64,000 nucleotides of DNA from a virus. The stretch lies in the IMG/VR virus record IMGVR_UViG_3300009130_000010, positions 38,930 through 102,929 of that record; one strand, written 5' to 3'. Of this stretch, positions 31,813-64,000 are shown in pieces (position 1 is the stretch's first letter; each line of letters starts with the position of its first letter). The notes beneath the pieces were generated by a model. The model had not been told where the DNA came from and did not search any database. It worked only from the letters and a program-made list of their open reading frames with translations. The translations under genes and the position numbers were made by a program.

Positions 31813-32076
31813 ATGAAAGATCAAATAATAATGTTATTGATAGGAATTCTAATCGCTTTAGGTGGTTGGAACCTAACACAAACATTTAGTCTATCAACTA
31901 CTCAAGCAGTAATTGACGACAAGGTTGATAAGTTAGAAAGACTTACTGAGAAGTTATTAGACCAGATGGACGATATGAAAGACATGGATGAAGAAATTGT
32001 TGAACAGCATCAGGACTTATTTGAACAACTTAGAAATAATCCATCAAGTACACCAAGCCCAGGATACAATTACTAA
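31813..32076 (+). CDS. Small membrane-anchored coiled-coil protein
   Basis: An 87-residue protein with one N-terminal transmembrane segment (about residues 5-22, IIMLLIGILIALGGWNLTQ), then a Lys/Asp/Glu-rich helix and a Pro/Ser tail. It is translated between gp6 and the giant protein gene with one-base junctions on both sides. Function unknown. It resembles the anchored coiled-coil protein at 7356-7823 in architecture but not obviously in sequence. Confidence 0.6.
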   Translation: MKDQIIMLLIGILIALGGWNLTQTFSLSTTQAVIDDKVDKLERLTEKLLDQMDDMKDMDEEIVEQHQDLFEQLRNNPSSTPSPGYNY

Positions 32077-41000: not shown

Positions 41001-44000
41001 CAACTACAAACAAAATATTATTTCTGGGCTAGTGCTATACTTACAGTTCATAGTACTAAAACATCAAGTGTCGCACAAATTAGACAAATGATTGTAGATC
41101 CAATTACTAACGGCACACCATACATTATGTTTTTAGGAAAAGATTCAATAGGCTTAACAAATGTTTCAGGATACTTAGAAGATAAAAATGTTGTAGTAGC
41201 AATTGATTACGATAAAAAACCAAATGATAAGTTATTACATACTGAATGGTCTTTGGTAGAAGAAGGCAATCCAAAAAGTTTTATACCAGAAGAATTGTTT
41301 GAAAAAATTAAAGATAGTTTAGCAGGTGCTGATTCACGAGGTAACAAAGTGCCAGATATTTCTTTAAGTGCTGGTGACAAATACGGTATTAAAATAAGAC
41401 CGAGACAAAGTGTCTTTATGAATAGATATCTTGCGATGCAAGAATATATTACCTATGTTAATGCTGTTATTAAAAAATATAACATAGCAGATACAATTGA
41501 TTTTACTTTATTAAATAGCGAAGAAAAAATACCATCAATTAATTCAGGAACTTGGGACGAAACAGTTGACACAATGATAGAGCTTGGATATATTAAACCA
41601 GCTTTACATTCAACAGGTTATAATATATTAGTAAAAACAGATTCAGACATTGGTGGTAGATGGAGTATTCATACACTACAAGCAGATAAAACTTGGTTGA
41701 GAAGTAGATCTCAAAGTTATGATACTAAACTATTTTGGGCATACTGTGATTGGTATAGCACAGGTTACTCATCAGATACAACCATAGATTACAGATATGA
41801 ATTATTTAATGACATTTATAAAAACACAATAGCAGATAAAAGCATTATTAAAATTAACAATGGTGGTAATTGGGATTTATATATTAAAGACGGAAATGAT
41901 TATACGTTAATAGGACAAAAAGACGGTACTATACAATTCGGTACTGACTTATATGATTATGTTACAAGTAACTTAGGTTTTGATTCTGAAGGTTACGATT
42001 TTAACTTAATGGATACAGAACCACAAATTGAAACTAGAAACATTGTTGAAACAATTAAAAAACAACTACTAGTTGGTGATTTAGCAAATGAACATAATAA
42101 ATTAATGTTTGTTTTATTGAGGTTTGCTTTACAAGAACAACCTTTTGTAGATTGGATTTTTAAAACTAGTTTTGTTAGTGTTAAACACAACTTAAGAGCA
42201 TTAGATCAATTTCCAACATACCAAAGAGACAATCAAGAATTTGTTAAAAATTATATTAACGAAGTAAAACCTTATCACACTAAAATTAGAGAATACGTTT
42301 TAGGTTATAATAAATTAGAAACACACGAAGGTGATACTACTGACTTTGATATTCCTAGTGGATATGATTCTATTACAAAAACATTTAGATCACCAAATGG
42401 TGAAAATAGTCATGATGCTGGAGCATTAACCACAGACTATGCTTATAAAATGTGGAATGAAAATCATAGTTATCAAGTTGATAGTTTATCAATTAGTAAA
42501 TGGGGATATGGTTATGCTACAGCACCAACAATAACAATTGAAGCACCTAAAGATAAGAACGGTACTTTAATTCCGGGCGGTGTGGCGGCTACGGCAAAAT
42601 GTACAATAGTTGACAACCACATTGATGTTGTTACTATGATTAAAAAAGGTAGTGGTTATATTAAAGCACCTGTAGTAACACTTACAGGTGGTAGCCCAAT
42701 GCTAAATGGTATCTTACACGCTAACTTAAAGAACACTGAAATAAGAAAAATTAAAGAAACAATAAAATTTGATAGAACTAGATACAGTTCATCTGTTAAA
42801 GAATGGACAGCTAATACAACATATTCAACTAGTGATATTATTCAACACTTAGGCGAAGCATACACAGTTAATGAAGCATTTACATCAAGCACAGCATTTG
42901 ATAGTGACAAACTGACAATTAAAGCTGATGCTACATTTAATAATGCTATGGATAGAACTATGGCATATTATATTCCTAAAACAGGACAAGATGGAAAAGA
43001 TTTAGGACAAATATTTAAAGGTATAACATATCCTGGTACAAAAGTTCAAGGCCCACTATTTACTAAAGACCCAGGATTAGACAAGGGCGGTTTTGATACT
43101 AGAGAATTTGACAACTATGAAATTGATAAAGACGGTCGTTTTGTTATATCAGCTGATAATATAGATTTAGATTTACAAGGAAAATTTAACGATACACAAT
43201 TAGGACTACGACCAGAAGATATTATTGTTGATGGTAGTAGCAAATTTGTTGATGCTTACAGCTCACACGCCCCGGAAGAATTTGTTCCAGGTAGAGTATT
43301 TGACAGTTTAAATATTAATGTGTTTACATCTCCTAGTAGAGACTCAGACGGTGACGGAGCATTAGGCCCAGCAGTTAGTGTTATCAATTATAAAGGTGAC
43401 GGCAGTAATAAAGTATTTAAATTTGGCACTAACAAACAAACTGATCAAAAAGTTATAGTATGGAGTAAAACTTCTGGTAGAATTAGCTCGTCAGCATATA
43501 CAATAGATTGGAATGATAATGTTGTTAAGTTTACTACAGCACCACTTAAAGATGAAATTATATCAGTAACTAGTTTTGGAACAACTGGTGATAAACTATT
43601 ATTTGATTACGAGTTCCAAGCATCCGGTGGAGAAACAGTTGTAACATTACCTATTCCTTATAGCTTAATTGAAAACAAACAAACATTAGTGTTAGCGAAT
43701 GGCAGTCATTCTACTGGTGGAACATTTGTTGATAAAGGTAGCGACACAGACTGGGACCCCGCTGTATCGTGGCTTACTAAAGATGATCACATTCACTTCT
43801 TTGTGTTTGACGTTCCATCAAGTTCTACAAGAACATTTAGTAAAGTTACTGTTGACGAGTTTACAGTTAACGACAGTACAAGAACATTTACGTTAACAGA
43901 TGGTGCTGATAATGATTTAGCTAGAACAGATAAAGTTATTGTTGAACTTAACGGAAAAAGATTACGCCCACCAGTGTTTACATATTTAACGAATGATAGT

Positions 44001-45068
44001 AGTTCAGCAACATATGACTTAACTACAAGTTCAGATATAGACCATTCTACTTTAGTAAAAGCAAATACTAGAGTTTATATTAATGGCGTACAAACTACAA
44101 ACTATAGTATTGTTGAAGGATCTGATAGTACAATAAAAGCAATTCAATTAGATGAGGCACCAGCGGCAAATTCTAAAATTGATGTAGGTGTTACAACAAA
44201 CGCTGATTATATTTTAACAGATAGTACAACATTAACTATTACAGGTGGAACTTGGACAGGTAGTGATAAAGTTGTTGTTACTACATTTAATAATCATAAT
44301 AATATGAAAATGACTACTGAAACATTTAAAGGTGGAAGTAGTTCAGCTATTACAACAGATATCGGATTTGATATTCGAGGATTTGAATCTGTTAGTTTTG
44401 ACGCCGTTACGGCTAGTGTTGTTAATATAGCAGAATTTAATTTATTTAAAACGCCAACAAACTTATCATATTTGTGGGTAACAAAGAACGGTGTTAAAAT
44501 GATTCCGAACTTTGATTATAAAATTGTCGGCGGCAAGTTAGCATTTGCTGAGTCGCTTCAAGCATCTGACATTACAATAATAACACAATTTACAGAAGAA
44601 ATTATTAAACCAGCAGTTGGATTTAAAATCTTTAAAGATTTACATGATAAAGTACACTATCATAGATTAGCAAATGAAAACACAGCTGAATTGTCCACAG
44701 AACTATTAGCAATACATTCAGAAATCAAAGTTACTGACGCTAGTAGATTACCTACACCAGATCTTAATAAAGCAATTCCTGGTGTTATTTGGATTAATAA
44801 TGAAAGAATAGAATACTTAGAAATTAATTTAACTACTAATACGCTTTCTAGAATAAAACGTGGTACTTTAGGCACAGGGTGCCAATCGACACATACAGCA
44901 GGAAGTTTAGTAGTAGATACAAGTAGTAGACAAGAAATTCCATCAGCTCATACTAAAACATGGTACCAAGTAAGTGGTGGTAACCCTAGTGATGGTAATG
45001 GTTTACAAAATTCAACAACTATACAAGCAGATTTCTTAGTTAAGAAACCTACTTACATAAAGAGCTAA
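32076..45068 (+). CDS. Giant baseplate/tail structural protein (4330 residues) with FG-GAP propeller
   Basis: One unbroken frame of 13 kb directly after gp6, where T4 has gp7 (1032), gp8 and later wedge genes, so a gp7-like role or a merger of several wedge functions is plausible. Visible parts: N-terminal helical/beta region; a GVTNNGGAQG beta segment near 190-260; two sections resembling CBM5/12 (about 1766-1815, WVANTDYVRGDIIKFKDNLY; about 3575-3620, WTANTTYSTSDIIQHLGEAY); seven FG-GAP-type blades between about 2175 and 2825 (for example FGTNVKMSANGEWCVVSAPG, GFGSALAITEHNIYVGSPF), forming a probable seven-bladed propeller broken by inserts; repeated GDGST-type beta modules; the NEVKPYHTKIREY motif near 3395; and a C-terminal GVIWINNERIEY/RIKRGTLGTG module common in phage tail proteins. 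Identity with any one T4 protein is unproven. Confidence 0.75.
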   Translation: MAKRNTSSFLPQAYQTERNKKFLSATLDQLMSSSNLTRMDGFVGRKYAPSFKVKDNYLTTTGLRRNYHLEPAIVTKKDSTIDSIVDSNDVGSVVTYDDLLNKLKDEGVDITDHSKLFGQEFYNWAGFINFDTLVNYGSYYWLKDGPNSVSITGGDIKMSGEWNIKYNDELNRYNVTELEGINPTIYLARGGVYTFETDQLENFWIQTDPGSITGTQAETSTKSSREIYGVTNNGGAQGDLEPAGGITFTVPDVTAQSFYENNLNLLADVNLFSEVPYKDVQGRRLADLIDQHNGIDNQRMLVGKTVVFKQNEDHNVDNDNWTFKADYSKHPFDRLGFAQEDGMVKQEERVGVWKINEVDGILVLNKINTVTYDDRAKITEGTTYGGRQIYRAQETEFVTIIPVLTAHLDTLYYQHGSDRTSYGIIKLVDAEAKEIKTTDFLGKSQYTSPNGIVFTNGLKITFDSTIDMPAYVGKTYYVQGVGSKIYLVDTELTTPELGTDTKDYITLTRGSVNKNAWSRSNRWFHKDIITATASYNKTTAIFDEKNRAVRPIIEFEAGLDLYNSGSKGHDGVDLVDTVETDALSNINGVSGYFVDRVSLSAGTKVIFIKDKDSQTRKTIWEVGYEDTDGDSSAESLVLKDSGIIVNTNDSVYINKGTAGKGTTYHWDGTNWIASQTKTKINQYPLFNLFDSKGISFNNTTTYPSSDFLGNQLFKFSVGSGSNDTELGFPLKYRTFNNVGDILFENVYTEKKFNYKKSTGITSLSTATGLVKVTDPYDSAITYNNGWQKSLHNSRQYQQVEYIVSDITLKNFDIGVKVKTSTNAVPNIFVYINNKRTSNFTTSVLEGVNICTINDTIAIDDSIIIRLISDATSKHGYYTIPKNLEDNSYNDKFSTITLGQLQNHVSALIDTNKYFTGKLQGSNNLRDLENSKSTEGLILQHSSSMILPMLLNQPGDLNFTQALRFCGLEYEKFKSKFLTALETLDNLELTDAQKTVDAIMVYLNSNKKTTFPFYTSDMVPYGADATTTTYTITDNRDKTYEITSVHDNSIPSNRAVLVYLNDVQLYHNIDYTFETTSANIRIIKTLTIGDVLKFIDYTDTLGNYVPPTPTKLGLWKKYKPEIVNDTTYSVDQNIIVGHDGSRTIAYGDTRDNILLELEKRIYNNCKTAYDEDVFNLDEYTPGRFKTTDFAVKEVDAVLEDEFLRWSTRHRIPYTENTTFNANDSFTWNYTNFVDKLEGTLLPQGYWKGLYKHYYDTVAPHIRAWEMFGWSIKPSWWEDRYGVGPYTSGNKVLWDDVRDGRRYTSADVDDYTINLLYARPSIELIMPVDEHGVLKPPIDCITKNSEDLSPSHAWKFGDVAPPEYAWRNSSSFAFSVNHLMALIKPSEYFSQVFNKSQIVRNKLTKQLVMTTTNQRQQPKDLKVDLPTARYEGCCNFVSEYLRWQNIDVTKHLQNVLSTLDIRLAHKMEGYTDHNLIKVLAEQVSPTSTSNSVYVPDEDYNIHLHKTGPLRSIPYSGVIVQVGTSGYTIYGYNLNNPKFSICNPIMNGNYKVHDVDGETIYEYDEYESEIKEVPYGHTFRTKQEVADFFFSYQKYLTRNGYDFDNRMEDFGTQKIVANWLMSVKEFIHWSKQGWLSGSVIAISPSANRIRCVTPAGVAEALSNSQAQTNVLNQNYEPLRPSSYKISRQDNEFELYPNPDMGGIYFVNTKLVEYEHVLVFNNVTKFNDVIYQPSLGNRQYRLRLVGYKTGGWNGSLTAEGFIYNDGKVPVWVANTDYVRGDIIKFKDNLYTAMVNHTSSEEFIYENWSLTDSFKIGLLPNFDTLGKNFESFYDVNTVNLESETDKYGKGSIGYQNREYFNQIGLDDISQVKFYQGMLQEKGTRSAVDKLIRSNFDQFSSDISFYEEWAIRQAEYGASDVNSRIEIQLDEEGFKDNPQEIKVVPTTQSKSDLNSKTEFTPSQLYKAPSDLTYDWVPLRKSFKAGVDSKAFYDELLPTAGYPKLTDADATLFYSVDANTLTPMIANMKVGYTVWVADDGDNDWDMKYLDTTTTQVINCDGGQDGSTYTWTTKDTHYFKKEDIVVIKDYSTKRDGVYRITEVPSVTSFKTAGGGEVAKEEATALVLKFISSRFKTSSTIERPRQGWDLKDKLYIDEDENNHWYVLKKNTSYTANQSINPLLPQLDENFGDAICSDPTGQWVLIGQKNLNKFHVYTPQPIELKQFAAITSTASNVDELGASVSTGAFLPREGGALKYEKWHRGKIWVAIGAPNTNSGKGAIMFYYRDLSSGSFLPGTLDQPTTLGSNAKFGTNVKMSANGEWCVVSAPGDKKVFIYHLAHGNDNDETATQSFIGDGSTTQWTLDTNFDDASVTEELYIRIEGNDLIAGRDYTYNLGTRTITFTTAPSTDHSISVTFLRGWSLVDERSSTIEGYGSSIDIDSQGNYIVIGDPNRDTVAPDSTTNMGSIDILARHYEVFIGDGSTKEFTVSTADIGRASSPVYINGVETPRITNSTITWTKAGNTITFVTAPQPGEDITIWTDNFTPLQTLTPSDPQVNGQFALTSVRIDETAQSIYVGVPEKDGMTENSGIVEVFDRQDSIVENKCTLKAWPIGSYTTGHSMFINGYKITATGTTLQNIVDDINNKNIPGITASGSNNNLTIQSSKNVKGFIHVTVGASGTLMKDLNLHPFTSNTGKIIKLKDGKTGHRFGQVLEVTRDNKQLIVGCPNGSTTVKTNFDDGTTLFDGGGSRFLAEKYFTGSVHVYQKINAGHIEADSLYASGLDANDGFGSALAITEHNIYVGSPFDDTSTVSNSGRVVHFTKTDDLYKVDEKEQDLVDVERINKAFLYNTQSNTIMSYLDYIDPVKGKVLGEAEHNIDYKTTWDPAIYNYTDGTKKINNGDNHWQSDKVGKIWWDLSKVKFINYEQGDNDYKKLFWGGVFPGSDISIYQWVESSVKPESYTAGNAKYGNSVYVEIQSINNVTKQLQTKYYFWASAILTVHSTKTSSVAQIRQMIVDPITNGTPYIMFLGKDSIGLTNVSGYLEDKNVVVAIDYDKKPNDKLLHTEWSLVEEGNPKSFIPEELFEKIKDSLAGADSRGNKVPDISLSAGDKYGIKIRPRQSVFMNRYLAMQEYITYVNAVIKKYNIADTIDFTLLNSEEKIPSINSGTWDETVDTMIELGYIKPALHSTGYNILVKTDSDIGGRWSIHTLQADKTWLRSRSQSYDTKLFWAYCDWYSTGYSSDTTIDYRYELFNDIYKNTIADKSIIKINNGGNWDLYIKDGNDYTLIGQKDGTIQFGTDLYDYVTSNLGFDSEGYDFNLMDTEPQIETRNIVETIKKQLLVGDLANEHNKLMFVLLRFALQEQPFVDWIFKTSFVSVKHNLRALDQFPTYQRDNQEFVKNYINEVKPYHTKIREYVLGYNKLETHEGDTTDFDIPSGYDSITKTFRSPNGENSHDAGALTTDYAYKMWNENHSYQVDSLSISKWGYGYATAPTITIEAPKDKNGTLIPGGVAATAKCTIVDNHIDVVTMIKKGSGYIKAPVVTLTGGSPMLNGILHANLKNTEIRKIKETIKFDRTRYSSSVKEWTANTTYSTSDIIQHLGEAYTVNEAFTSSTAFDSDKLTIKADATFNNAMDRTMAYYIPKTGQDGKDLGQIFKGITYPGTKVQGPLFTKDPGLDKGGFDTREFDNYEIDKDGRFVISADNIDLDLQGKFNDTQLGLRPEDIIVDGSSKFVDAYSSHAPEEFVPGRVFDSLNINVFTSPSRDSDGDGALGPAVSVINYKGDGSNKVFKFGTNKQTDQKVIVWSKTSGRISSSAYTIDWNDNVVKFTTAPLKDEIISVTSFGTTGDKLLFDYEFQASGGETVVTLPIPYSLIENKQTLVLANGSHSTGGTFVDKGSDTDWDPAVSWLTKDDHIHFFVFDVPSSSTRTFSKVTVDEFTVNDSTRTFTLTDGADNDLARTDKVIVELNGKRLRPPVFTYLTNDSSSATYDLTTSSDIDHSTLVKANTRVYINGVQTTNYSIVEGSDSTIKAIQLDEAPAANSKIDVGVTTNADYILTDSTTLTITGGTWTGSDKVVVTTFNNHNNMKMTTETFKGGSSSAITTDIGFDIRGFESVSFDAVTASVVNIAEFNLFKTPTNLSYLWVTKNGVKMIPNFDYKIVGGKLAFAESLQASDITIITQFTEEIIKPAVGFKIFKDLHDKVHYHRLANENTAELSTELLAIHSEIKVTDASRLPTPDLNKAIPGVIWINNERIEYLEINLTTNTLSRIKRGTLGTGCQSTHTAGSLVVDTSSRQEIPSAHTKTWYQVSGGNPSDGNGLQNSTTIQADFLVKKPTYIKS

Positions 45069-53044: not shown

Positions 53045-53481
53045 GAAAAATAAGTCACAGAGGAAATTTAAATGGGCCTAATCCTGAAAGGGAGAACAGT
53101 CCACATTATATTTTTGAGGCACTAGCAGAAGGATTTGATGTTGAAATTGATGTATGGTATCAAAACGGAATGATACAACTAGGGCATGATAAACCTATAT
53201 ATACTGTTAACAAGAAAATGTTAAACATGAATGGCTTATGGTGTCATGCTAAAAATGTTGAAGCATTAGAGTATATGACTAACAACGACATTAATTGTTT
53301 TTGGCATCAAGGAGATGATGTTACGTTAACAAGTAAGGGTTATATATGGACACACTCTGACTACAATACTTACACACCAAAATCAGTAATATGTCATATG
53401 GAGAGACCTAGTATAGAAGAACTAGAAGTATATAAAAATTGTTATGGTTTATGTAGTGATTACATCGGAGTTATAGAATGA
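53041..53481 (+). CDS. Short glycerophosphodiesterase-like (GDPD/PLC fold) protein
   Basis: A 146-residue protein with the catalytic core of the GDPD family: ISHRGNL (first His), [12 protein letters not shown] (Glu and Asp metal ligands) and [10 protein letters not shown] (second His). Typical GDPDs have about 250 residues; this stops soon after the first half of the barrel but then continues with [14 protein letters not shown] and YIWTHSDYN strands, so it may be a trimmed barrel. It overlaps Fpr and SufB genes by four bases each. It may act on phospholipid headgroups or another phosphodiester. Confidence 0.6.
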
Positions 53482-54923
53482 AAAAAGAAACAGTAAAAAC
53501 AGTTGATAAATTCTCCGAGTATAAGCACGGCTGGTCAACTGATATAGAATCAGATACAATTCCAAAAGGCATAAACGAAGATATTGTTAAAATAATATCT
53601 TCTAAAAAGAATGAACCGCAATGGATGTTAGATTGGCGTCTTAAAGCCTATAGAGCTTGGATTAAAATGGAAGAGCCTAATTGGGCTAACGTTGATTTTC
53701 CTCAAATAGATTATCAAGATTTATATTATTATTCAGCACCTAAGAGTATGGCAGATGGTCCTAAGAGTTTAGATGAAGTAGACCCTAAACTATTAGAAAC
53801 ATACAAAAAATTAGGAATACCATTAGCAGAACAAAAAAAGTTAGCAGGTGTGGCAGTAGATGTTGTATTTGATAGTGTGTCAGTTGCTACAACATTTCAA
53901 GACGAATTAGAAAAAGCAGGAGTAATATTTTGTCCAATATCAGAAGCAATTCAGAAGCACCCAGAATTAGTTAAAAAATACATTGGTTCTGTTATACCAA
54001 TACGTGATCATTTTTATGCGGCGTTAAATTCTGCTGTATTTACAGATGGATCATTTGTGTATATTCCACCAGGTGTAAAATGTCCTATGGAATTATCAAC
54101 ATATTTTAGAATTAATGCTGAAAAAACAGGTCAATTTGAAAGGACATTAATAATTGCTGACAAAGGAAGTTATGTAAGTTATTTAGAAGGATGTACAGCA
54201 CCAATGAGAGATGAGAATCAATTACACGCCGCCAATGTAGAATTAGTTGCTCTTGATGATGCTGAGATAAAATATTCAACAATTCAAAATTGGTACCCAG
54301 GTGACGATCAAGGAAAAGGTGGCGTATATAATTTAGTTACTAAACGAGGAGCCTGCCGAGGACGTAACAGTAAAATAAGTTGGACCCAAGTAGAAACAGG
54401 TTCAGCAGTTACGTGGAAGTATCCTAGTTGTATATTACAAGGAGATAACTCTTCGGGTGAATTTTATTCTGTTGCTGTAACAAACAATTACCAACAAGCA
54501 GATACAGGAACTAAAATGATTCATATGGGTAAGAATACAAAAAGTAGAATAATCTCAAAAGGTATTTCCTGTGGACATTCACAAAACACTTACAGAGGAT
54601 TAGTTAGTATTAAGAAGATGGCCGATAAGGCTCGCAATTATACACAATGCGATTCATTACTTATAGGCGACAAGTGTGGAGCACATACTGTTCCATACAT
54701 AGATAATAATTGTAAGACTTCAGTATCAGAACACGAAGCGTCAGCATCTAAAATTAGTGATGACCAATTATTTTACATAAGACAACGAGGCATACCAGAG
54801 GAACAAGCTGTTAGTTTAATTGTTAATGGGTTTTGTAAAGAAGTATTACAAAAATTACCAATGGAGTTTGCTATGGAGGCACAGCAACTCGTAGGAATTA
54901 GTTTAGAGGGGAGCGTAGGATAA
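53478..54923 (+). CDS. sufB: SufB, Fe-S cluster scaffold subunit
   Basis: A 481-residue SufB, full length for the family. Conserved blocks: [158 protein letters not shown] and the typical end [15 protein letters not shown]. Multiple conserved Cys remain, including in EGCTAP and QCDSLL. SufB builds Fe-S clusters in a SufBC2D complex. It is followed by VOC, SufE, SufC and SufD-like genes in one overlapping run. It appears intact, so it is probably functional. Confidence 0.97.
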
Positions 54924-55351
54924 TGTCAAATAGATTTCATTTAGCCATACTAGCAGGCGATCTAGAAGTAGCAATAAAATTTTATTGTGATGTGTTAGGT
55001 TGTAAAAGAGGTATGGCAGAATTTAAATACCCCGATGCTTGGGTAGATATTAACTTCTGGGGTAATGAGTTAACACTACACGCATCAGATCCAAAAGATA
55101 AAAATGCTGGCGAACGACATAATGTTGATATGGGTAATGTATCTGTACCTCATTTTGGTGTACACTTAGACAATGATGTATTTCAAAATTTAAAACAGCG
55201 AATAATAGATAACGGAATAGAATTTTTAGATCCTCCCTTCATTAGGTTTGAAGGCGAGAGTAGACAACAAGAAACAATGTTTATCGAAGACCCTAACGGT
55301 AACTGTTTAGAAATTAAAACAATGGCGAATCCAGATGAATTATTTAGATAA
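54923..55351 (+). CDS. VOC/glyoxalase-family protein
   Basis: A 142-residue vicinal-oxygen-chelate protein: N-terminal FHLAILAGDLEVAIKFYCDV then LGCKRG, a central NELTLHASDP, a second half HFGVHLDNDVFQNLKQRI and the C-terminal FIEDPNGNCLEIKTM with the usual Glu ligand. Metal-ligand His residues sit at the expected starts of each half. It lies between SufB and SufE, with one-base and 17-base overlaps. Reaction unknown; a small dioxygenase, lyase or binding protein are all possible. Confidence 0.8.
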   Translation: MSNRFHLAILAGDLEVAIKFYCDVLGCKRGMAEFKYPDAWVDINFWGNELTLHASDPKDKNAGERHNVDMGNVSVPHFGVHLDNDVFQNLKQRIIDNGIEFLDPPFIRFEGESRQQETMFIEDPNGNCLEIKTMANPDELFR

Positions 55352-55739
55352 AATTACAGAGTATAAAAATAACATTGAAACGTTACGAGCAATTGAAAGT
55401 TTAGAAGTTTACCGATGGTTGATTTCGCTCGGGGCAAAATTAAACTTCGATCCTTTAAGTGAAGAAAAACGTATTGAAGAAAACAGAGTAAGTCGTTGCC
55501 AGTTTGATTTATTTGTTGATTGGGAAGATGGTAAATTTAAAGCATGGAGCAACGCCATGATAGCTGGAGGTTATGCTTACATACTAATAGATATTTTTAA
55601 TTCTCCAGGAGCAGAAAAAATCACAATAGAACAATTTGAAGAAATTAAACTAGACGAATTACTAACAATGAATAGAAAAACTGGATTCTATCAAATGATC
55701 GAGATAATGATAAAAAGGATACCGAATGTTAAAAATTGA
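55335..55739 (+). CDS. sufE: SufE-like sulfur acceptor
   Basis: A 134-residue SufE relative. The sulfur-accepting Cys is in ENRVSRCQFDLFVD (family form 'V.GCqS.vW'), and LTMNRKTGFYQMIEIM corresponds to the C-terminal 'L...R..G...M' of SufE. SufE takes persulfide sulfur from the SufS cysteine desulfurase and passes it to SufB. No SufS is in this window, so the host enzyme or a gene elsewhere must supply sulfur. It overlaps the VOC gene by 17 bases and sufC by 14. Confidence 0.85.
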   Translation: MNYLDKITEYKNNIETLRAIESLEVYRWLISLGAKLNFDPLSEEKRIEENRVSRCQFDLFVDWEDGKFKAWSNAMIAGGYAYILIDIFNSPGAEKITIEQFEEIKLDELLTMNRKTGFYQMIEIMIKRIPNVKN

Positions 55740-56460
55740 AAACTTAAAAGTATCAATAGATGGTAAAGAAATAATAAAAGACTTAACCCTTAATATTCCA
55801 AAAGGTGAAGTTCATGCTTTAATGGGTCCTAACGGATCAGGTAAAAGTACATTGGCTAATGTGTTAGCTGGGCGAACTGGTTATGATATTGATGGAACAA
55901 TTTCTTATCAAGGAAAAGATTTATTAACTTTACCAATAGAAGAAAGAGCTCAAGAAGGTTTGTTTTTAGCATTTCAATATCCTGTTGAAGTTCCTGGCGT
56001 TAATACAAGTAACTTTTTAAGATCAGCACTAAATCAAACTCGTAGACATAGAAAAGAAGCAGAATTAGACCCTTTAGAATTTGTTGCAAAAATACAACAA
56101 ACAGCAGAAACCCTTAACATTGACAAAACAATACTTAATAGAGAACTAAATGTAGGATTCTCAGGGGGCGAAAAAAAGAAAAATGAAGTATTACAAATGT
56201 CTATCTTAGAACCTACGTTAGCAATTCTAGATGAGACTGATTCTGGTTTAGATATAGACGCTTTAAGAATCGTAGCAGACGGTGTAAATGCTTTAAAAAA
56301 TAAAGATAGATCTTTTTTAATTATTACACATTACCAACGTTTACTAGATTACATTAAACCAGACTTTGTTCATGTTTTAATGGATGGGAAAATAGATAGA
56401 ACAGGATGTGAAGCACTAGCTTTAGAATTAGAAAAGAGTGGTTATGGACATACAAAATAA
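55726..56460 (+). CDS. sufC: SufC, Fe-S assembly ATPase
   Basis: A 244-residue ABC ATPase of the SufC type. Walker A MGPNGSGKSTLANVLAG, the SufC-specific stretch GLFLAFQYPVEVPGV, signature NVGFSGGEKKKNEVLQM and Walker B with ILDETDSGLDIDAL. It drives shape changes in the SufB-SufD pair during cluster assembly. Size and motifs are normal. It overlaps the SufD-like gene by 17 bases. Confidence 0.97.
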   Translation: MLKIENLKVSIDGKEIIKDLTLNIPKGEVHALMGPNGSGKSTLANVLAGRTGYDIDGTISYQGKDLLTLPIEERAQEGLFLAFQYPVEVPGVNTSNFLRSALNQTRRHRKEAELDPLEFVAKIQQTAETLNIDKTILNRELNVGFSGGEKKKNEVLQMSILEPTLAILDETDSGLDIDALRIVADGVNALKNKDRSFLIITHYQRLLDYIKPDFVHVLMDGKIDRTGCEALALELEKSGYGHTK

Positions 56461-57016
56461 TTATAAAAAAGTTATAAACTTAAAAGAAGATTCAGTATTA
56501 AATTATAACTTAAAAGAAGACTCAATTGCGGTTATATTTTTTTATAATTATTCTGGCGTTGCGACAACTGTTAATATAAACTTAGATACAAATTCATCTT
56601 GCGAGTTGTATGGTATATTTAAAAACACAGATGAGAAAACAGATGTTGTTACTAACGTAGTACACAATGGTCATAATTCAAAGTGTAATCAAGACTTTAG
56701 ATTTATAAACAAGAATAGTGTTAGTTCTTTTGAGGGTTTAATTTCTGTTCCTAAAGATATTACTAATTGTGAAAGTCATATGTCTAACAAAAATCTTTTA
56801 TTAGATACTACATCTAAAGCATTCGCAAAACCAGAATTAAACATTTTAAATTCTAATGTTGTTTGTTCACATAGCAGTACAACTGGAGCATTAGATGAAG
56901 AACAATTATTTTATCTTCAAAGCAGAGGAATATCATATGAGGACTCTATTGATATGCTCGTAGAAGCATTTTCCCAAGACATTAAAAATAAAATGGAAGG
57001 AACAATCAAACAATGA
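56444..57016 (+). CDS. sufD: SufD-like protein, shortened
   Basis: A 190-residue protein with the C-terminal SufB/SufD core: HNGHNSKCNQDFRFINKNSV then SSFEGLISVPKD, LLLDTTSKAFAKPELNI (with 'A...P.L.I...V.CSHSSTTG'), and LDEEQLFYLQSRGISYEDSI DMLVEAF. The family His that faces SufB is in VVCSHSSTTGALDE. SufD is normally about 400 residues; the N-terminal half and much of the beta-helix are missing. A GTG at 56438 is an alternative start; ATG at 56444 is preferred. It could still pair with SufB as a minimal partner. It ends four bases into the next gene. Confidence 0.8.
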   Translation: MDIQNNYKKVINLKEDSVLNYNLKEDSIAVIFFYNYSGVATTVNINLDTNSSCELYGIFKNTDEKTDVVTNVVHNGHNSKCNQDFRFINKNSVSSFEGLISVPKDITNCESHMSNKNLLLDTTSKAFAKPELNILNSNVVCSHSSTTGALDEEQLFYLQSRGISYEDSIDMLVEAFSQDIKNKMEGTIKQ

Positions 57017-57744
57017 AAATAGCTGTTTGTGTTAGTGGACAATTACGAGGTCACTGGGAAGAATCTATTAAAACGTGGCCGTTAATGTTTGATAAAGAAT
57101 CCGAGGTTGATTACTTTGTACATACATGGACAAATAAAACGGCCCCTAATGCTATAGCACATAAAAATAAAGACGACGAAGAAAAAAGTATTAGTAAGCA
57201 AGAACTTAACAAACTTAAAAAAATATTAAAGCCTAAAAAAATATTAATAGAAGATCCTATAGAATTTAAAACTGAAAACGAATGGGCAGTATTTGACCCA
57301 AATTATCATAGTCAATTTTACGGTGTTATGATGGCTTGTAATTTAAAACAACAATACGAACATGATTTTGCTTTACAATATGATGTTTGTGTAAGAATGA
57401 GATTCGATAATTACGTTGAAAAAAAATATCATATATCACAAATGAAAATGGGCGAAGCTCATATCATTCATCAAACGTTTGATAAAAATCATAGATATAG
57501 ATGTAGTGATGTTTACTTTGCTACAACAAGTTTTGACTATGACCGTATGTGTGATTTTTATAGTTGTATACCTAGATATAAAAAAGATTGGTTTGTAATT
57601 AACGACGACAAAACATACGGACCTGAACACGTTTTAGCATTTCATATGAAAGCTAATAATATAAAACCTGTACAAACTTATATGCCAATTAAATTAAAAC
57701 GAGAAGAAAAACATTATAGCGGAGGTGCCCATGAGATCACCTAA
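57013..57744 (+). CDS. Putative glycosyltransferase-like protein (SGQLRG family), copy 1
   Basis: A 243-residue protein starting MKIAVCVSGQLRGHWEESIK. The 'SGQLRG...W' opening and the later YDVCVRMRFDNYVEKKY (RxRxD-like) pattern are shared by glycosyltransferase-like proteins in marine phages and large viruses. The adjacent gene is a diverged second copy. It overlaps the SufD-like gene and its paralogue. Confidence 0.55.
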   Translation: MKIAVCVSGQLRGHWEESIKTWPLMFDKESEVDYFVHTWTNKTAPNAIAHKNKDDEEKSISKQELNKLKKILKPKKILIEDPIEFKTENEWAVFDPNYHSQFYGVMMACNLKQQYEHDFALQYDVCVRMRFDNYVEKKYHISQMKMGEAHIIHQTFDKNHRYRCSDVYFATTSFDYDRMCDFYSCIPRYKKDWFVINDDKTYGPEHVLAFHMKANNIKPVQTYMPIKLKREEKHYSGGAHEIT

Positions 57745-58456
57745 GGTAGCCATTTGCTGGAGTGGGCAATTACGAACTGGCTTACGAGCTGTTCCGTACT
57801 TGTTAAGATTTTTTGAAAATATAAAAAACATTGATCATTTTTATCATAGTTGGGATAACGATCAGCCAAAAGAAGATTGGGATAAACTTAATGAACTTTT
57901 AGATCCAGTTGAGTCGTTTATTGAAACACCTTGGAAACATAGAGGCTTTGCTGGTAATATGTTACATAGTATACAACAATCTAATTGGCTTAAACGACAA
58001 CATGAACTTAAAAATAAATTTAGATATGACATTGTAATTAAATGTAGATTTGATTTATTAATACCAATACACAAACGTTGGATATACCCTGAAGTAGTTG
58101 ATAGAAGCATATATTATAGCATAGGCAACAACGGACTAGTGCTAACTGATTTTGCTACACACGGCTTTAGTGATTTAATTTATTGGGGTAATAGTCATGC
58201 TATGGATATCATTAGTGACTCTTATAGATATTATAATTGGACATTAATGCCAAAACAATTAACTTGCTTAACTGGTGGTAATGTAGACCCTGAAGACACA
58301 ATGTATTCTCCAGGTACAATAATGTATCAACTAGGACAAAAATATAATTTAAGAATGATACAAATAGAACCACAACTAGGAGAAACACTTTGGCGAACAT
58401 CAGTTGTTGACTTAGATCCATATCTAGACTGGAATGAAATTAGAGAGGCATACTAA
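57731..58456 (+). CDS. Putative glycosyltransferase-like protein (SGQLRG family), copy 2
   Basis: A 241-residue paralogue of the preceding gene: PKVAICWSGQLRTGLRAVPY and YDIVIKCRFDLLIPIHKRW match its motifs in order. A GTG start at 57725 is possible, but ATG at 57731 has GGAGG six bases before it and is chosen. Tandem duplication followed by divergence is the simplest history. Function as a sugar transferase is a family-level inference. Confidence 0.55.
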   Translation: MRSPKVAICWSGQLRTGLRAVPYLLRFFENIKNIDHFYHSWDNDQPKEDWDKLNELLDPVESFIETPWKHRGFAGNMLHSIQQSNWLKRQHELKNKFRYDIVIKCRFDLLIPIHKRWIYPEVVDRSIYYSIGNNGLVLTDFATHGFSDLIYWGNSHAMDIISDSYRYYNWTLMPKQLTCLTGGNVDPEDTMYSPGTIMYQLGQKYNLRMIQIEPQLGETLWRTSVVDLDPYLDWNEIREAY

Positions 58457-58899
58457 TGATCATCAGTACTGTTAACTTGTTCTGTTATTATAATATACCG
58501 GGAGCAGATAAAGAAATGTTGTTTGGGTTTAAAAATCATACACACGCTACTAAAGAAACAGATACTAATACAGCATTACATAGTTTTATTGTATACAAAG
58601 ATTGTTATAGAATATTTTATGATCAATGGATTGATAGCGGAGTAGTACAAAAGAAATTTCTAGATAAAGTTGTTGTGCCAGAAATACCAGACTTGCCTGA
58701 TAACTGTAAGCGTTTTTCTTACAATAACATTTATACAGAGGCGGCTACTTACATACAGCAACTTACTGGTACAAGATTTTATCCAAAGTATTTTAATCAT
58801 ACAACATATAAAGAAGGAGATGTGTTGCCAGAACTAAAAGAAAAACTTAGAACAATATTTAAAGAATACAACGACAAACTAGGAATTAAAAATGAGTAA
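58456..58899 (+). CDS. Hypothetical protein
   Basis: A 147-residue protein with no motif recognised; segments such as FIVYKDCYRIFYDQWIDSGV and YNNIYTEAATYIQQLTGTRF suggest a mixed alpha/beta soluble protein. It is coupled by short overlaps to the glycosyltransferase-like gene before it and the SGNH-type gene after it, implying a shared role in surface glycan modification. Confidence 0.45.
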   Translation: MIISTVNLFCYYNIPGADKEMLFGFKNHTHATKETDTNTALHSFIVYKDCYRIFYDQWIDSGVVQKKFLDKVVVPEIPDLPDNCKRFSYNNIYTEAATYIQQLTGTRFYPKYFNHTTYKEGDVLPELKEKLRTIFKEYNDKLGIKNE

Positions 58900-59752
58900 G
58901 TTATTAGTAGTAGGTGACAGTTGGTGCTTCGGTAGTGAAATTAGAAACCCTGATTTAAGTGTGGATATTAAAGACTGGGATATACAAAATAACAGTTATC
59001 GCATACCTAGAATTTGGCCTACATTACTTGCTAAAGAATTAGGTACAGGTTTAACTAACTTATCTTACCCGGCGGCAAGTAATGATCGTATATTACGACT
59101 TACTGAAAGTTGGTTGTATGAAAATTATATAAGTCGAAATAGAAGTACTAATGAACTTAAAGTTATAATTGGTTGGACAAGTCCAGAACGTAAAGACTTT
59201 TTCTATACTGACCCCCATAATAAAAGTACACCAAACTGGACAACTATATGGCCACAACAAGCAGGATTTGATTATGTACAACCAGGCATGAATGATTTCT
59301 TTAAACTATATGTAACTTACTTGTGGCATCAACGTGAAGCATTAAATAGGTACGTTCATCAAGTAACAGCAATGGAAAATTTATGTAAGGCACATGACAT
59401 CGAATTGCTGATGTTTCAAGCGTTCTATGACGCAGGCAAAGGCATACACGGAGCAAAAGAAAATATGGATGACTTTATAGATTATAAAAGTCCAGGTTAT
59501 ATAAATGATGAATTTGAGAAAGCAGAGCTTGGAGAAAAACATCCAGGCTGGCATCATCATTACAGTAATGAAATGAATAAGACAATGTGGGAATGCCTAA
59601 ATCAAAAAACATTTATGACAGAAAGTTTCTTTGGTTATATGAAAAAGAAAGGCCTCGATAAAACAATTATAGGACAGCATCCAAATGAATTAGGACATAA
59701 ACTTTGGGCTGAACATATTAAAAAATATATAAAGGATAATTTAAAATGGTAA
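58892..59752 (+). CDS. SGNH-hydrolase-like protein, copy 1
   Basis: A 286-residue protein with GDSL/SGNH block I as VVGDSWCFGSE (Ser nucleophile), an Asn in AASNDRILRLTES, and the final block as GQHPNELGHKLWAEHI. The catalytic Asp normally three residues before the His (DxxH) is absent (I-G-Q-H). SGNH enzymes remove or transfer acyl groups, often on polysaccharides. It is the first of four similar genes in 4 kb. Confidence 0.65.
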   Translation: MSKLLVVGDSWCFGSEIRNPDLSVDIKDWDIQNNSYRIPRIWPTLLAKELGTGLTNLSYPAASNDRILRLTESWLYENYISRNRSTNELKVIIGWTSPERKDFFYTDPHNKSTPNWTTIWPQQAGFDYVQPGMNDFFKLYVTYLWHQREALNRYVHQVTAMENLCKAHDIELLMFQAFYDAGKGIHGAKENMDDFIDYKSPGYINDEFEKAELGEKHPGWHHHYSNEMNKTMWECLNQKTFMTESFFGYMKKKGLDKTIIGQHPNELGHKLWAEHIKKYIKDNLKW

Positions 59753-60525
59753 AAAACGATCTCAACATTCATACAGTTTATAATGCTGGCGATAGTTTTG
59801 CTACTGGTGTTGGATTACATGATCCAAAAGTTTCATCATACCCTGTTAAGATAGCAGAAGCATTTGATTCTAAATTAATAAGTTTAGCTAGACCAGGTTG
59901 TTGTAATTTTAGTATTAGTTTAATGATAAAATATTTCGTTGACAACTTTGACGAAGATGCATTTTATATAATATCTACTACTAATGAAGATAGATTACAT
60001 TGGCTTAAACCTGGTATAGTGTATAGTAACGAACAGGAAGTAACAATTCAAGATTTAAATTATGAAGATTATAAAGAAAACTTATTAACTGACTTACCGT
60101 TTAATAGTAACAATATTCTCCAAAGTGAAACTTGTAGCAATATATTATTATTTAAAGAAGGTGGCATACCAACTAACAAAACATTAAAAAGCGAACCAGA
60201 GTCTAGACTTAATACATTGTGTTCATATGTTAAAGAAGTTCATGATAGTAAAATTAAACGATACGAAGATTGTGGCATTTTTGCCACACAATTACATAGA
60301 TTAAATCAACTAACATCAAATTGGGTATTGTTTACAATGTGGCACGAGTTAGAAGAGATGTTTCCTAATAACTTTTTACAAGTAGATTACGGTATTGTTA
60401 GCAAAGAATATCCAGATGATCTAGGCAGTGGACACTTTAATAGAACAGGTCATAGAGTAATAGCAAGAAAATTTGAAGAATGGTATACAAAAAACTATGA
60501 TGTGTCGGATAAATTGTTTAAATAA
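59746..60525 (+). CDS. SGNH-hydrolase-like protein, copy 2
   Basis: A 259-residue relative: block I is YNAGDSFATGVGL, the Asn-containing block is RPGCCNFSISLMIKYF, and the final block is SGHFNRTGHRVIARKFEEW, again without Asp at the DxxH position. It overlaps copy 1 by seven bases. Divergence from the other copies is large, so each may act on a different group. Confidence 0.6.
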   Translation: MVKNDLNIHTVYNAGDSFATGVGLHDPKVSSYPVKIAEAFDSKLISLARPGCCNFSISLMIKYFVDNFDEDAFYIISTTNEDRLHWLKPGIVYSNEQEVTIQDLNYEDYKENLLTDLPFNSNNILQSETCSNILLFKEGGIPTNKTLKSEPESRLNTLCSYVKEVHDSKIKRYEDCGIFATQLHRLNQLTSNWVLFTMWHELEEMFPNNFLQVDYGIVSKEYPDDLGSGHFNRTGHRVIARKFEEWYTKNYDVSDKLFK

Positions 60526-60545
60526 TACAAAGGAGAACATCAACA

Positions 60546-61319
60546 ATGCCAATAAAACTTTTATATACAACAGGCGACAGCTGGACCTATGGCGAAGAAT
60601 TAGGTGATGTAACAGCAGTTGATAACTTGAATCATAAATTTTATAACAGTTGGCCTTGGCACGTTTCACAACATTATAATATTCCACAGCTAATAAATGA
60701 TGCCAGAGGTGGTGGCTCCAATGCTAGGATGTATAGGAGAACAATAGAATTTTTACAATCATACAAAGGTAAATTCTCTGAATTAGCTATTATTGTTGCT
60801 TGGTCAACATACGAGCGTACTGAATTTTCTTTACCAGCAGAAGAGAAATATCATGACGGTGAGAAATTTGTTGAATGGACTGAACGACAATTCTTCCATT
60901 GGCATCACAGTAATGATCCAGAATCTATGGATTTTAGTGGATTCTTGAGTCCAGGACAAAATATGGCATTGAAGTCATTACATAAAAGTTGGACATTACT
61001 ACGAGACCCTTCAGGTGATGCTCCTGCTTTAAAAAACTTAATGTGGTCATTACAAGAAATTTGTAAAACAAATAAAATAAAACTTCATCAATTTTTTGCA
61101 TTAACTAATCCCGAATTTGAAAAAGAGTACAGCGAGTATGAACCAATTTGGGCCGAACAAGTCAAATACTATCAACCTGCTTTTGCTAGTAAAACATTTG
61201 GTGCTGGTGAAGGTATAACTGGATTTGTTTCTAGGGTTGGTATTGGCTCGCACCCAAACGAAAAAGGACATAAAGAAATAGCAAACTTTATAGTAGATAA
61301 GATAGGAGATAAAATATGA
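60546..61319 (+). CDS. SGNH-hydrolase-like protein, copy 3
   Basis: A 257-residue relative: TTGDSWTYGEELGD, GGGSNARMYRRTIEFLQSY, and GIGSHPNEKGHKEIANFIV. The GDSW and HPNxxGH motifs are the clearest of the four; Asp is missing before the His. AAGGAG lies 11 bases upstream of the start. It is similar to copy 4 (62160), which shares GDSWTxGxELG and the SNxRxxRRT helix. Confidence 0.65.
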   Translation: MPIKLLYTTGDSWTYGEELGDVTAVDNLNHKFYNSWPWHVSQHYNIPQLINDARGGGSNARMYRRTIEFLQSYKGKFSELAIIVAWSTYERTEFSLPAEEKYHDGEKFVEWTERQFFHWHHSNDPESMDFSGFLSPGQNMALKSLHKSWTLLRDPSGDAPALKNLMWSLQEICKTNKIKLHQFFALTNPEFEKEYSEYEPIWAEQVKYYQPAFASKTFGAGEGITGFVSRVGIGSHPNEKGHKEIANFIVDKIGDKI

Positions 61320-61438
61320 GGTTGTTAAGACGTATAAAGAAGTTCTTTACTGATATCTATTTAAAAATTAAAATGGAAATAGCATACAGAAAGAAACTTA
61401 AAGAAATTAAAAAACGAGATCCGTTTATATACAAATGA
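61316..61438 (+). CDS. 40-residue basic mini-protein
   Basis: ATG at 61316 overlaps the previous stop (ATGA) and its own stop overlaps the next start in the same way, a strong sign of real coding. The product starts MRLLRRIKKFFTDIYLKIKM and ends KKRDPFIYK, an amphipathic, strongly basic helix. It could bind membrane, RNA or DNA; no function is known. Confidence 0.6.
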   Translation: MRLLRRIKKFFTDIYLKIKMEIAYRKKLKEIKKRDPFIYK

Positions 61439-62163
61439 AAATAGTAGTAGCAATGGCTGGCCTTGGAACACGTTTTCAAGAAGCAGGACATACATATCCT
61501 AAACCGTTAATCCGTACGGGCAACACAACTATGATTCAAAACGTGTATTATAGTTTAGCCTGGCCTGGTGATTGGTACTTTATAGCATTGAAAGAACACC
61601 TTGATCAATTTAACTTTATGTTACCGTTATTAGAAAGTATGGGAAGTGTTACAGTAATAGATAAACCAACACGTGGTGCGGCTGAAACATTACAACAATG
61701 TAAAGAAATAATGAATAGTAGTGGTCCTTTTATTAGTGTTAATTGTGATCAAGTATTTGAATGGGACACAACAGAACTACAAGAAAAAATGAAAGTAGAA
61801 CCAGATGCTAGTTACATGACAACTTACGATTCACTAGACGAACAAAGACATAGTTTCGCTCTTACAAATGATAATGACATAGACGTTTGGCATTGTTGTG
61901 AAAAAACAAGACTTGGTTATCATTGTAATAATGCTACTACTGGATTCTATCATTTCGCTAATGGCGAAGTATATAATGAAGCAACAACTAAATTATTATC
62001 CAAACCACCCGAGTATGGTGAATATTATGTGTCATCTGTTTATAACGAGTTAATTGCTAAAAAACATATTGTAAAACAATACAAAGTACACGCAAAAACA
62101 TTTTGGCCTGTTGGTACACAACCTGACTGGTTACATTATACACACAGGCATTTTAGACGATGA
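61435..62163 (+). CDS. Sugar-phosphate nucleotidyltransferase
   Basis: A 242-residue nucleotidyltransferase making an NDP-sugar or similar activated headgroup. VVAMAGLGTRFQEAGHTYPKPLI holds the G-x-G-T-R-F...PKP nucleotide-binding signature, and FISVNCDQVFEWD is the metal-binding Asp region. KPTRGAAETLQQC corresponds to the 'GTA.a...a' base-binding loop. It probably supplies donors for the glycosyltransferases in this block. Sugar unknown. Confidence 0.85.
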   Translation: MKIVVAMAGLGTRFQEAGHTYPKPLIRTGNTTMIQNVYYSLAWPGDWYFIALKEHLDQFNFMLPLLESMGSVTVIDKPTRGAAETLQQCKEIMNSSGPFISVNCDQVFEWDTTELQEKMKVEPDASYMTTYDSLDEQRHSFALTNDNDIDVWHCCEKTRLGYHCNNATTGFYHFANGEVYNEATTKLLSKPPEYGEYYVSSVYNELIAKKHIVKQYKVHAKTFWPVGTQPDWLHYTHRHFRR

Positions 62164-62873
62164 TAACTTTATACACTAATGGTGATAGCTGGACACAAGG
62201 AGACGAACTAGGTCTACCATACAAAGAACACGAAACAGAAGCAGAACAATACTATTGGAGTTGGCCTTGGCAGTTACACAAACTACTAGGTACTACAATG
62301 TGTTTTAATGATGCTGTTAAAGGTACAAGTAACAATAGAATATTTCGCAGAACTACAAATTTTATTAGAAATTATAACAAACATTATAACCCAAGAGAAC
62401 TAATAGTTGTTGTATGTTGGACAACATTAGATAGAGATGAGATTCCTATTGATGTAAACGATACTGGTTGGCATATTCCTATACAAATGTATGGCGTTAA
62501 ATTGCCCAACCATAGTGAGATAAGTAAACTTGATGCTACTACAACAGAAGCATTAAATCAAATTCACAAACCTTACACTATGACTCTCCCTGGGATTAAA
62601 GTTAGATCAGAGTTACAATATTCACGTATGTGGAACTTAAAACAAATTTGTGATAGTTTAGGAATAAAATTAATTCAATCTTGGGCTTTAGACATACCGC
62701 AGTTTGACCCAACACATAACGATTTTGTAAAACAATGGATAGATGATATAAAATATCTGCCAGAGATATTCATTAACTATTGTAGGAAAAAGAATTACCC
62801 ACTCGGTCCAGGAGGACATTGTTATAAAGATGGGCATGAAGGTTGGGCAAAGTACATATATGAAAACATTTAA
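62160..62873 (+). CDS. SGNH-hydrolase-like protein, copy 4
   Basis: A 237-residue relative of copy 3: YTNGDSWTQGDELGL, KGTSNNRIFRRTTNFIRNY and PGGHCYKDGHEGWAKYIYEN. Ser and His are kept and Asp is again absent. It overlaps the nucleotidyltransferase by four bases and the next small gene by 14. Confidence 0.6.
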   Translation: MITLYTNGDSWTQGDELGLPYKEHETEAEQYYWSWPWQLHKLLGTTMCFNDAVKGTSNNRIFRRTTNFIRNYNKHYNPRELIVVVCWTTLDRDEIPIDVNDTGWHIPIQMYGVKLPNHSEISKLDATTTEALNQIHKPYTMTLPGIKVRSELQYSRMWNLKQICDSLGIKLIQSWALDIPQFDPTHNDFVKQWIDDIKYLPEIFINYCRKKNYPLGPGGHCYKDGHEGWAKYIYENI

Positions 62874-63168
62874 TATTACATACAACAAATGGAAAGACGT
62901 AACTCGTCCTATAGCTTTTTTAAAAGCAGGAGGAACAACATTATACGTTGAAGCATTAATGAATCAAAAAGATCTTGATGTAATTAATGTTGATACTAAA
63001 ATTCATAGTGCTGATCCTACTTGTGAAAATGCTTGTAAAACTTTACACCCAGGTTGTGAATATAATGTTGTTAATAATTTATCTGGCCCGATTGTTATTA
63101 ATGATGATTGGAAAATTGAAACTGAAAAGGATTTATATGAATATAACTTATACGAGGAATACAGATGA
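62860..63168 (+). CDS. Small hypothetical protein
   Basis: A 102-codon frame (about 101 residues) with MKTFNITYNKWKDVTRPIAF then EALMNQKDLDVINVDTK and a Cys-containing CENACKTLHPGCEYNV segment. The frame is open from 62830, but ATG at 62860 is preferred. It is coupled to both neighbours. No family recognised. Confidence 0.45.
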   Translation: MKTFNITYNKWKDVTRPIAFLKAGGTTLYVEALMNQKDLDVINVDTKIHSADPTCENACKTLHPGCEYNVVNNLSGPIVINDDWKIETEKDLYEYNLYEEYR

Positions 63169-63494
63169 AGATATTTGATTTTAAGAAAATGTTTAAAGGC
63201 TGGTTTGTTGGAGACTTTGAAAATACGGCCATGTCTGCTAATTTTGAAGTAGCATATCATACACATACTAAAGGAGAATTCCACCAAGACCACTTTCATA
63301 AAGAACAGCGTGAAGTAACAATGATTATTGAAGGCGAAATGATTTGTAATGGACAGCATTTGAAAGCAAATGATATTTTTGTTATTGAACCTTATGAAGT
63401 AAGTATCTGTGAATTCTTGACAGACGTTAAAGTAATAGTAGTAAAAAATATTTGTAACACAAGTGACAAATATTCATTTGACATTAAGAATTAA
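63165..63494 (+). CDS. Cupin-domain protein
   Basis: A 109-residue single cupin: HTHTKGEFHQDHFHKEQREV holds the His/Glu metal ligands of motif 1, and IIEGEMICNGQHLKANDIFVIEP forms the second motif region. Small cupins act as sugar epimerases, isomerases, dioxygenases or sensors. It sits between glycan genes and the RuBisCO-like gene, so it could serve either. Confidence 0.7.
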   Translation: MKIFDFKKMFKGWFVGDFENTAMSANFEVAYHTHTKGEFHQDHFHKEQREVTMIIEGEMICNGQHLKANDIFVIEPYEVSICEFLTDVKVIVVKNICNTSDKYSFDIKN

Positions 63495-63512
63495 AGAAGG
63501 TATAATAACACT

Positions 63513-64000
63513 ATGGAACTATACAGAACAATAGCACCCGACGATCATTTTAGTTGTAATTTCTTTTTAATGAGTCGGACAAATGTTAAAGAAGCCGCAG
63601 AAGCATTGGCAATTGGCCAAAGTATTGGTAATCCTTCTGTTAGAAGCAAATATGAAACACCAGAAATGATGGAAAATCATAGTGCTAAAATTATTGCTGA
63701 CCCAGACGACCTAGCAAATATCAAAGCAGGCGTTGTTGAAATTGCTTGGCCATATAGAAATATTGATTGGTATGCTGATGGTATTGCCCAATTAATGTGT
63801 ACTGTAATGGGTGGACAAATGGACATTGATATTATACAACAATGTCATTGGATTGACATTCATATTAATAGACTTAAAGCAGACTTGTCAGTACCATCAT
63901 ATGGATTAAGTGGCTTTAGAGATCATGTTCAATCATATGGCAAACCATTACTTGGTACTATTGTTAAACCAAAAACTGGACTTACTCCTGAGACATTAAA
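63513..64000 (+). CDS. RuBisCO-superfamily large-chain protein, probably form IV (RuBisCO-like), partial
   Basis: The N-terminal 162 residues of a RuBisCO-type protein, cut by the right edge. The N-terminal domain shows VVEIAWPYRNIDWYADGIAQ, then LSVPSYGLSGFRDHV and the barrel entry KPLLGTIVKPKTGLTPE, aligning with the canonical 'RPLLGTxxKPKLGLS' block that has Lys175 and Lys177 (spinach numbering). By eye, canonical carboxylase residues in the N-terminal domain are not kept: the 'ESSTGTW' segment (Glu60, Thr65, Trp66) is replaced by GQSIGNPS, and Asn123 ('SIVGN') is Gly in CTVMGG. This points to a form IV RuBisCO-like protein rather than a CO2-fixing enzyme. AGAAGG lies about 12 bases before the ATG. 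Confidence 0.8.
   Translation, partial: MELYRTIAPDDHFSCNFFLMSRTNVKEAAEALAIGQSIGNPSVRSKYETPEMMENHSAKIIADPDDLANIKAGVVEIAWPYRNIDWYADGIAQLMCTVMGGQMDIDIIQQCHWIDIHINRLKADLSVPSYGLSGFRDHVQSYGKPLLGTIVKPKTGLTPETL

Follow-up and report, generated by a model that had tools for sequence, protein, structure and literature searches.

RuBisCO-like proteins (RLPs) characterised so far serve sulfur salvage or acid-sugar catabolism. MtnW (IV-YkrW, structure 2oej) is the DK-MTP-1P enolase, and OiaX and OiaX-like RLPs belong to apiose and acid-sugar pathways, where, according to database annotation, OiaX and related RLPs process phosphorylated acid sugars. In Rhodospirillum rubrum, 5-methylthioribulose-1-phosphate is isomerised by an RLP of the DeepYkr clade, and the following step falls to a cupin (PMC5893883). 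Another form IV group, IV-GOS, was named after ocean sampling sequences (PMC10173188), and the GOS study listed 65 RuBisCO homologs that fitted into no known clade (PMC1821046). Viruses have also yielded RuBisCO-like matches, for instance in a landfill study where one viral RbcL clustered with RbcL-like proteins (PMC12607003). Form IV proteins and viral RuBisCO-like matches are hence already known; new is a phage clade with a conserved nucleotidyltransferase (NTase) cassette. No such combination of RLP and NTase was found in the open-licence papers searched, which, given that scope, is weak evidence of novelty.

The window analysed here, a stretch of 64,000 nucleotides of viral DNA, carries at its extreme end the first 162 of about 374 codons of an RLP gene (63513..63998, + strand), starting with ATG and open at the 3' end. 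Because the window (positions 38930-102929 of 102929 bases) and the 102,929-bp virus record end together, the reading frame is cut by the contig edge and not by a mutation. An earlier note, made from the letters alone, had read this as a RuBisCO-superfamily gene with a KPKTGL motif in a T4-related phage, and this reading was borne out. The motif is present, and the fragment matches RuBisCO_large (E 3.8e-4) and RuBisCO_large_N (E 5.7e-4) in Pfam, both below the curated cut-offs, as well as 85 distinct PDB sequences at E up to 1 by phmmer, the top match being the rubisco 8vgs (2.6e-7). The record itself is that of a T4-related phage, since T4-core genes for structure and late transcription are present, among them those for a baseplate wedge, a hub/tail lysozyme of the baseplate and a late sigma factor of the gp55 type, besides SbcC/D-type genes. 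The remainder of the gene, which the note had asked for, came from the independent contig L004, whose DNA is 99.1 % identical to window 53489-64000 over 10.5 kb and encodes a complete RLP of 374 aa (L004:10001-11122) whose first 162 aa are identical to the window fragment. The full protein has the N-domain and TIM barrel of the superfamily (PF00016 fold) together with the KPK and KxDE motifs, and its AlphaFold model (pLDDT 92.8) finds as predicted best fold match in the PDB the archaeal rubisco 2d69 (TM 0.88, E 1.2e-29). Furthermore, purifying selection on the gene is strong: of four pairs of relatives compared, three give a dN/dS of about 0.07, and the fourth is saturated at synonymous sites.

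Two cassette members, overlooked in the earlier note, precede the RLP gene in the window, both on the + strand: a stand-alone NTase of 242 aa (61435..62163; PF00483), whose family profile is nearest to the solved structure 4evw, and a small cupin-type protein of 109 aa with an HxH...E metal-ligand motif (63165..63494), recognised by alignment and by weak Cupin matches of its relatives. Inserted between them on the same strand are a DUF6071 gene assigned by Pfam (62160..62873), whose membership in the cassette may or may not hold, and a short ORF of 112 aa from the ORF list (62830..63168), similar to one in the group of contig L087. In L004, the RLP gene is overlapped at its end by one for an adenine phosphoribosyltransferase (APRT; L004:11118-11654), and a PMM-like HAD protein is also encoded downstream. 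The inserted DUF6071 protein is one of three paralogs, SGNH-hydrolase-like by eye, in a glycan-type region of the window (58892-59752, 60546-61319, 62160-62873), and the ORF at 59746-60525 resembles them and is a candidate fourth. Elsewhere, the window holds a phage-borne SUF iron-sulfur assembly cluster (53478-57016), consisting of SufB-like (53478-54923; SUFBD_core, E 6.8e-78), glyoxalase-type (54923-55351), SufE-like (55335-55739), SufC-like ATPase (55726-56460; ABC_tran, SufC by sequence) and SufD-core (56438-57016) genes, and an ORF of 4330 aa (32076-45068) which, by position and size, is probably tail-fibre-like.

With respect to the active site, we surveyed 103 family members, taking spinach numbering from motif positions. 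K175, K177, K201, D203, E204, S379, G381, G403 and G404 are conserved in at least 102 of 103 and H327 in 99, and where the GGG motif is read as 403-405, G405 is mostly Ala. In contrast, E60 is Gly, T65 Asn, N123 Gly, H294 Gln, G380 Cys and the loop-6 lysine K334 Tyr in every one of the 103, and 101 of them have Lys for R295, so that each residue of the carboxylase set (E60, T65, N123, H294, R295, K334) is replaced in at least 101 members; W66 is replaced too. The positions 294 and 295 are those of a sequence alignment, ungapped versus form III, on which MAFFT and HMMER agree, and not of a ligand-bound structure. Replacement of E60, T65, W66 and N123 had been anticipated in the earlier note, which also took form IV to be likely and proposed checking Lys201 and the loop-6 lysine, of which the former is kept and the latter lost. 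A RuBisCO homolog whose essential carboxylase residues are replaced is by definition of form IV type, and the viral RLP is almost certainly such an enolising enzyme and no carboxylase. Judging from the conserved ligands, metal- and carbamate-dependent enolisation is likely to be retained and CO2 addition very unlikely, although conserved active-site residues alone are no proof that the RLP is catalytic. Four further residues, Gln261/Lys262, Tyr302 and Cys328 (L004 numbering), are nearly invariant.

Placed in a maximum-likelihood tree together with forms I, II and III, MtnW and OiaX-type/other RLPs (91 proteins, 45 of them from the family), the family forms one clade (support 100/100, 100 % of bootstraps) apart from all of these references. 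The tree is unrooted and leaves out IV-GOS, DeepYkr and IV-Photo sequences, so that the clade cannot be named from it. NCBIfam models point the same way, as members score 132-189 bits for form III (cut-off 497), 93-159 bits for MtnW (TIGR03332 / NF007095; cut-offs 513.6 and 409), which is of the same order as the form III scores, and 107-148 bits for OiaX (NF042437; cut-off 700). MtnW shares with the family the RuBisCO fold, an enolase-type metal site and Gly at E60, but it has lost K177, has Ser in place of K334 and Lys in place of N123, and lies far from the RLP clade in the tree. IV-GOS, to which the family was compared by description only, resembles it in its metagenomic, partly marine origin, whereas viral origin and an NTase cassette, both traits of the viral family, do not appear in the IV-GOS descriptions consulted (PMC10173188, PMC1821046). 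Within the RLP clade, viral and cellular members are intermixed, which is consistent with gene exchange in either direction.

The family is mainly viral in the databases we searched. Scanning IMG/VR with the family profile produced matches at 294 viral loci, the best 80 of which we retrieved, and 22 loci came from a single scan of 84,980 cellular species; as profile scans ran on two short peptide patterns, these counts are lower bounds. The window fragment alone, used as query, found 57 IMG/VR loci. No homolog was detected among the isolate phages of INPHARED (50,697 records), and PHROGs held no family for five full-length members. Cellular carriers include SAR11, three Legionella species, Azospirillum, Elusimicrobia, Verrucomicrobia, Patescibacteria and three archaea, where short contigs binned to cellular genomes may be viral themselves. 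Among 299 Pseudomonadota genomes, the sole carrier was the Legionella genome serving as centre (344 bits; next best 135). T4-type gp23 was found in 17 and a terminase match in 21 of 44 RLP-bearing viral records. One very large phage contig (L101, 518,643 bp) combines the RLP cassette with T4-type gp23 and terminase genes.

The genomic neighbourhood was compared by clustering the neighbours of 107 non-redundant RLPs, 86 of them at loci with four or more genes to either side. A sugar-type NTase (PF00483, about 240 aa) lies within four genes of the RLP in 82 of these 86 loci and within five in 85. Within four genes, a cupin of 107-109 aa occurs in 60 of the 86, adjoining the RLP gene on its upstream side in most relatives, and a GDPD-like protein (about 140-177 aa; HRG...EN...ExD...GHD motifs) is found near the RLP in 61; all three partners occur together in 43, most commonly in the order NTase, cupin, RLP, GDPD-like and mostly on the same strand. 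About 30 % of RLPs have no cupin nearby, and the same holds for the GDPD-like gene. For instance, the Legionella unit consists of RLP and NTase without cupin or GDPD, beside a divergent LicD gene. The RLP-NTase linkage itself persists in viruses, SAR11, Legionella, Patescibacteria, Elusimicrobia and one archaeon, and single-protein NTase and cupin queries of viral contigs returned few matches, all of them RLP-bearing loci. The NTase has a conserved GxGxRF...PK signature, Asp105 and Glu156-Lys157, and its profile matches sugar-1-phosphate nucleotidyltransferases, the top one being 4evw (E 7e-36), which its depositors named a nucleoside-diphosphate-sugar pyrophosphorylase; the NTase sequence fixes no single nucleotide. 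The cupin profile has weak general cupin matches in the PDB and no particular tie to a known family. The GDPD-like assignment is weak, since N-terminal motifs alone match solved phosphodiesterases (E 7e-4) and Pfam gave no GDPD match for the protein. Further neighbours are NAD-epimerases and FkbM-type and other methyltransferases. Overall, the conserved neighbours are genes of glycan and nucleotide-sugar metabolism.

A search of viral contigs with one GDPD-like protein yielded 68 loci, 64 of which have no RLP in the retrieved DNA. An NTase is present at 49 of the RLP-less loci, and in 43 of these it is fused behind a beta-phosphoglucomutase-type HAD (42 the fusion only, one both forms), whereas at RLP loci the stand-alone form prevails, in 99 out of 107 (97 this form only, two both). 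Because the NTase is fused in RLP-less loci and stands alone in RLP loci, this contrast, drawn from one GDPD-centred query of limited diversity, suggests that RLP and HAD may be alternative suppliers of the NTase substrate. The HAD-NTase fusion (L246:2287-3645, L250, L252, L271 and others among L292-L371) is about 455 aa long, frequently has a GDPD-like gene close by and occurs at no fewer than 598 viral loci. Genes of the NeuB type (sialic-acid synthase family) also occur near the fusion in RLP-less phages (L252:5336-6166, by Pfam; L271:3236-4069, by eye).

We propose, with a probability of roughly 55 %, that the viral RLP enolises or isomerises a sugar-phosphate-like compound that serves as precursor for nucleotide activation. 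The proposal builds on the observed fold, separate clade, residue pattern, purifying selection and cassette, and on neighbours of glycan type, from which the chemistry, the sequence of steps and the purpose are deduced. In this model, the RLP would enolise and isomerise, or otherwise rearrange, a phosphorylated keto-sugar-like compound at its presumably intact Mg2+/carbamylated-lysine site. The product would pass to the adjacent NTase, either directly or after intervening cupin and HAD phosphatase steps, the order of which is our conjecture. The NTase would then generate a nucleotide-activated sugar or polyol, such activation being the putative purpose of the pathway, for decoration of a virion or host-surface glycan, and the GDPD-like neighbour might process a phosphodiester of that product. 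Against the activation model count the frequent lack of the cupin or the GDPD-like gene and an NTase that its sequence ties to no one nucleotide. In addition, a shared neighbourhood is no proof of a shared pathway, and phage glycan islands gather unrelated enzymes.

The latter point leads to another explanation, which we regard as unlikely: an OiaX- or transcarboxylase-like role in central sugar-phosphate/acid-sugar catabolism during infection, the NTase being merely co-located in the glycan island. The island does hold many further genes, and OiaX, likewise a form-IV-type protein, acts on phosphorylated sugar acids. However, an NTase linkage that extends across viruses, SAR11, Legionella, Elusimicrobia and an archaeon is hard to square with island hitch-hiking, and no four-carbon acid-sugar kinase is among the recurrent RLP neighbours, unlike in plasmid RLPs. 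Moreover, OiaX-type proteins keep H294, R295 and K334 and have lost K177, whereas the viral family shows the reverse, and the two form separate clades.

MTA salvage releases adenine, and the APRT gene following the RLP in L004 would fit a methionine-salvage or MTA-isoprenoid-shunt enzyme like the DeepYkr-clade RLP of R. rubrum. The RLP gene beside a small cupin gene likewise recalls the shunt pairing of R. rubrum and R. palustris (PMC5893883). Yet APRT is not among the recurrent neighbour families, the cupin is lacking at about 30 % of loci, in contrast to the almost invariably present NTase, the family's constant partner, and the cupin is not detectably of the shunt type. Furthermore, a search of 45 records detected no member of the MtnA family, against 9 positive genomes out of 14 in the control, although hosts could supply MtnA; the DeepYkr RLP itself stands outside our tree. 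A methionine-salvage role, the first of several that the earlier note had suggested for the phage copy, is thus not supported, given the lack of MtnA in the records searched, a cupin without particular relation to known families and a neighbourhood of glycan and nucleotide-sugar genes, and we consider it distinctly improbable.

A true form III-like RuBP carboxylase, fixing CO2 or feeding an AMP/nucleoside pathway, has hardly any chance of being correct. It is true that archaeal form III enzymes (Pyrococcus horikoshii 2cwx/2d69) come first in both fold and profile comparisons and share K175, K177, K201, D203, E204 and the P1 glycines with the family, and that APRT neighbours the RLP in L004, the close relative of the window. 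Nevertheless, the residue pattern, form III scores far under the cut-off and a clade separate from the carboxylase forms make it very improbable, and the context is unrelated to RuBP metabolism; a protein with all carboxylase residues that clusters with forms II or III, which the earlier note had named as the outcome that would overturn it, was not what we found. Finally, a contig chimera or bacterial contamination of the virus record, also raised there and prompted by an RLP at the extreme contig end and by family members in bacterial genomes, is as good as eliminated, since the independent contig L004 carries the same 10.5 kb, and of 44 RLP contigs 17 bear T4-type gp23 and 21 a terminase match.

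Returning to the nucleotide-activation reading, we see, at slightly less than even odds, a RuBisCO-fold branch, carried mainly by phages, that is dedicated to nucleotide-sugar or nucleotide-polyol biosynthesis for surface or virion glycans, with Gln261/Lys262, Tyr302 and Cys328 marking a chemistry unseen in characterised RLPs. The 65 unplaced ocean homologs (PMC1821046) may include this clade, which could thus account for RuBisCO homologs of ocean metagenomes that had found no place. As a caution, viral RuBisCO matches should not be counted as carbon fixation. RLP and NTase form a directly testable enzyme pair, and a widespread viral clade tied to an NTase would extend the RuBisCO superfamily into nucleotide-sugar biosynthesis.
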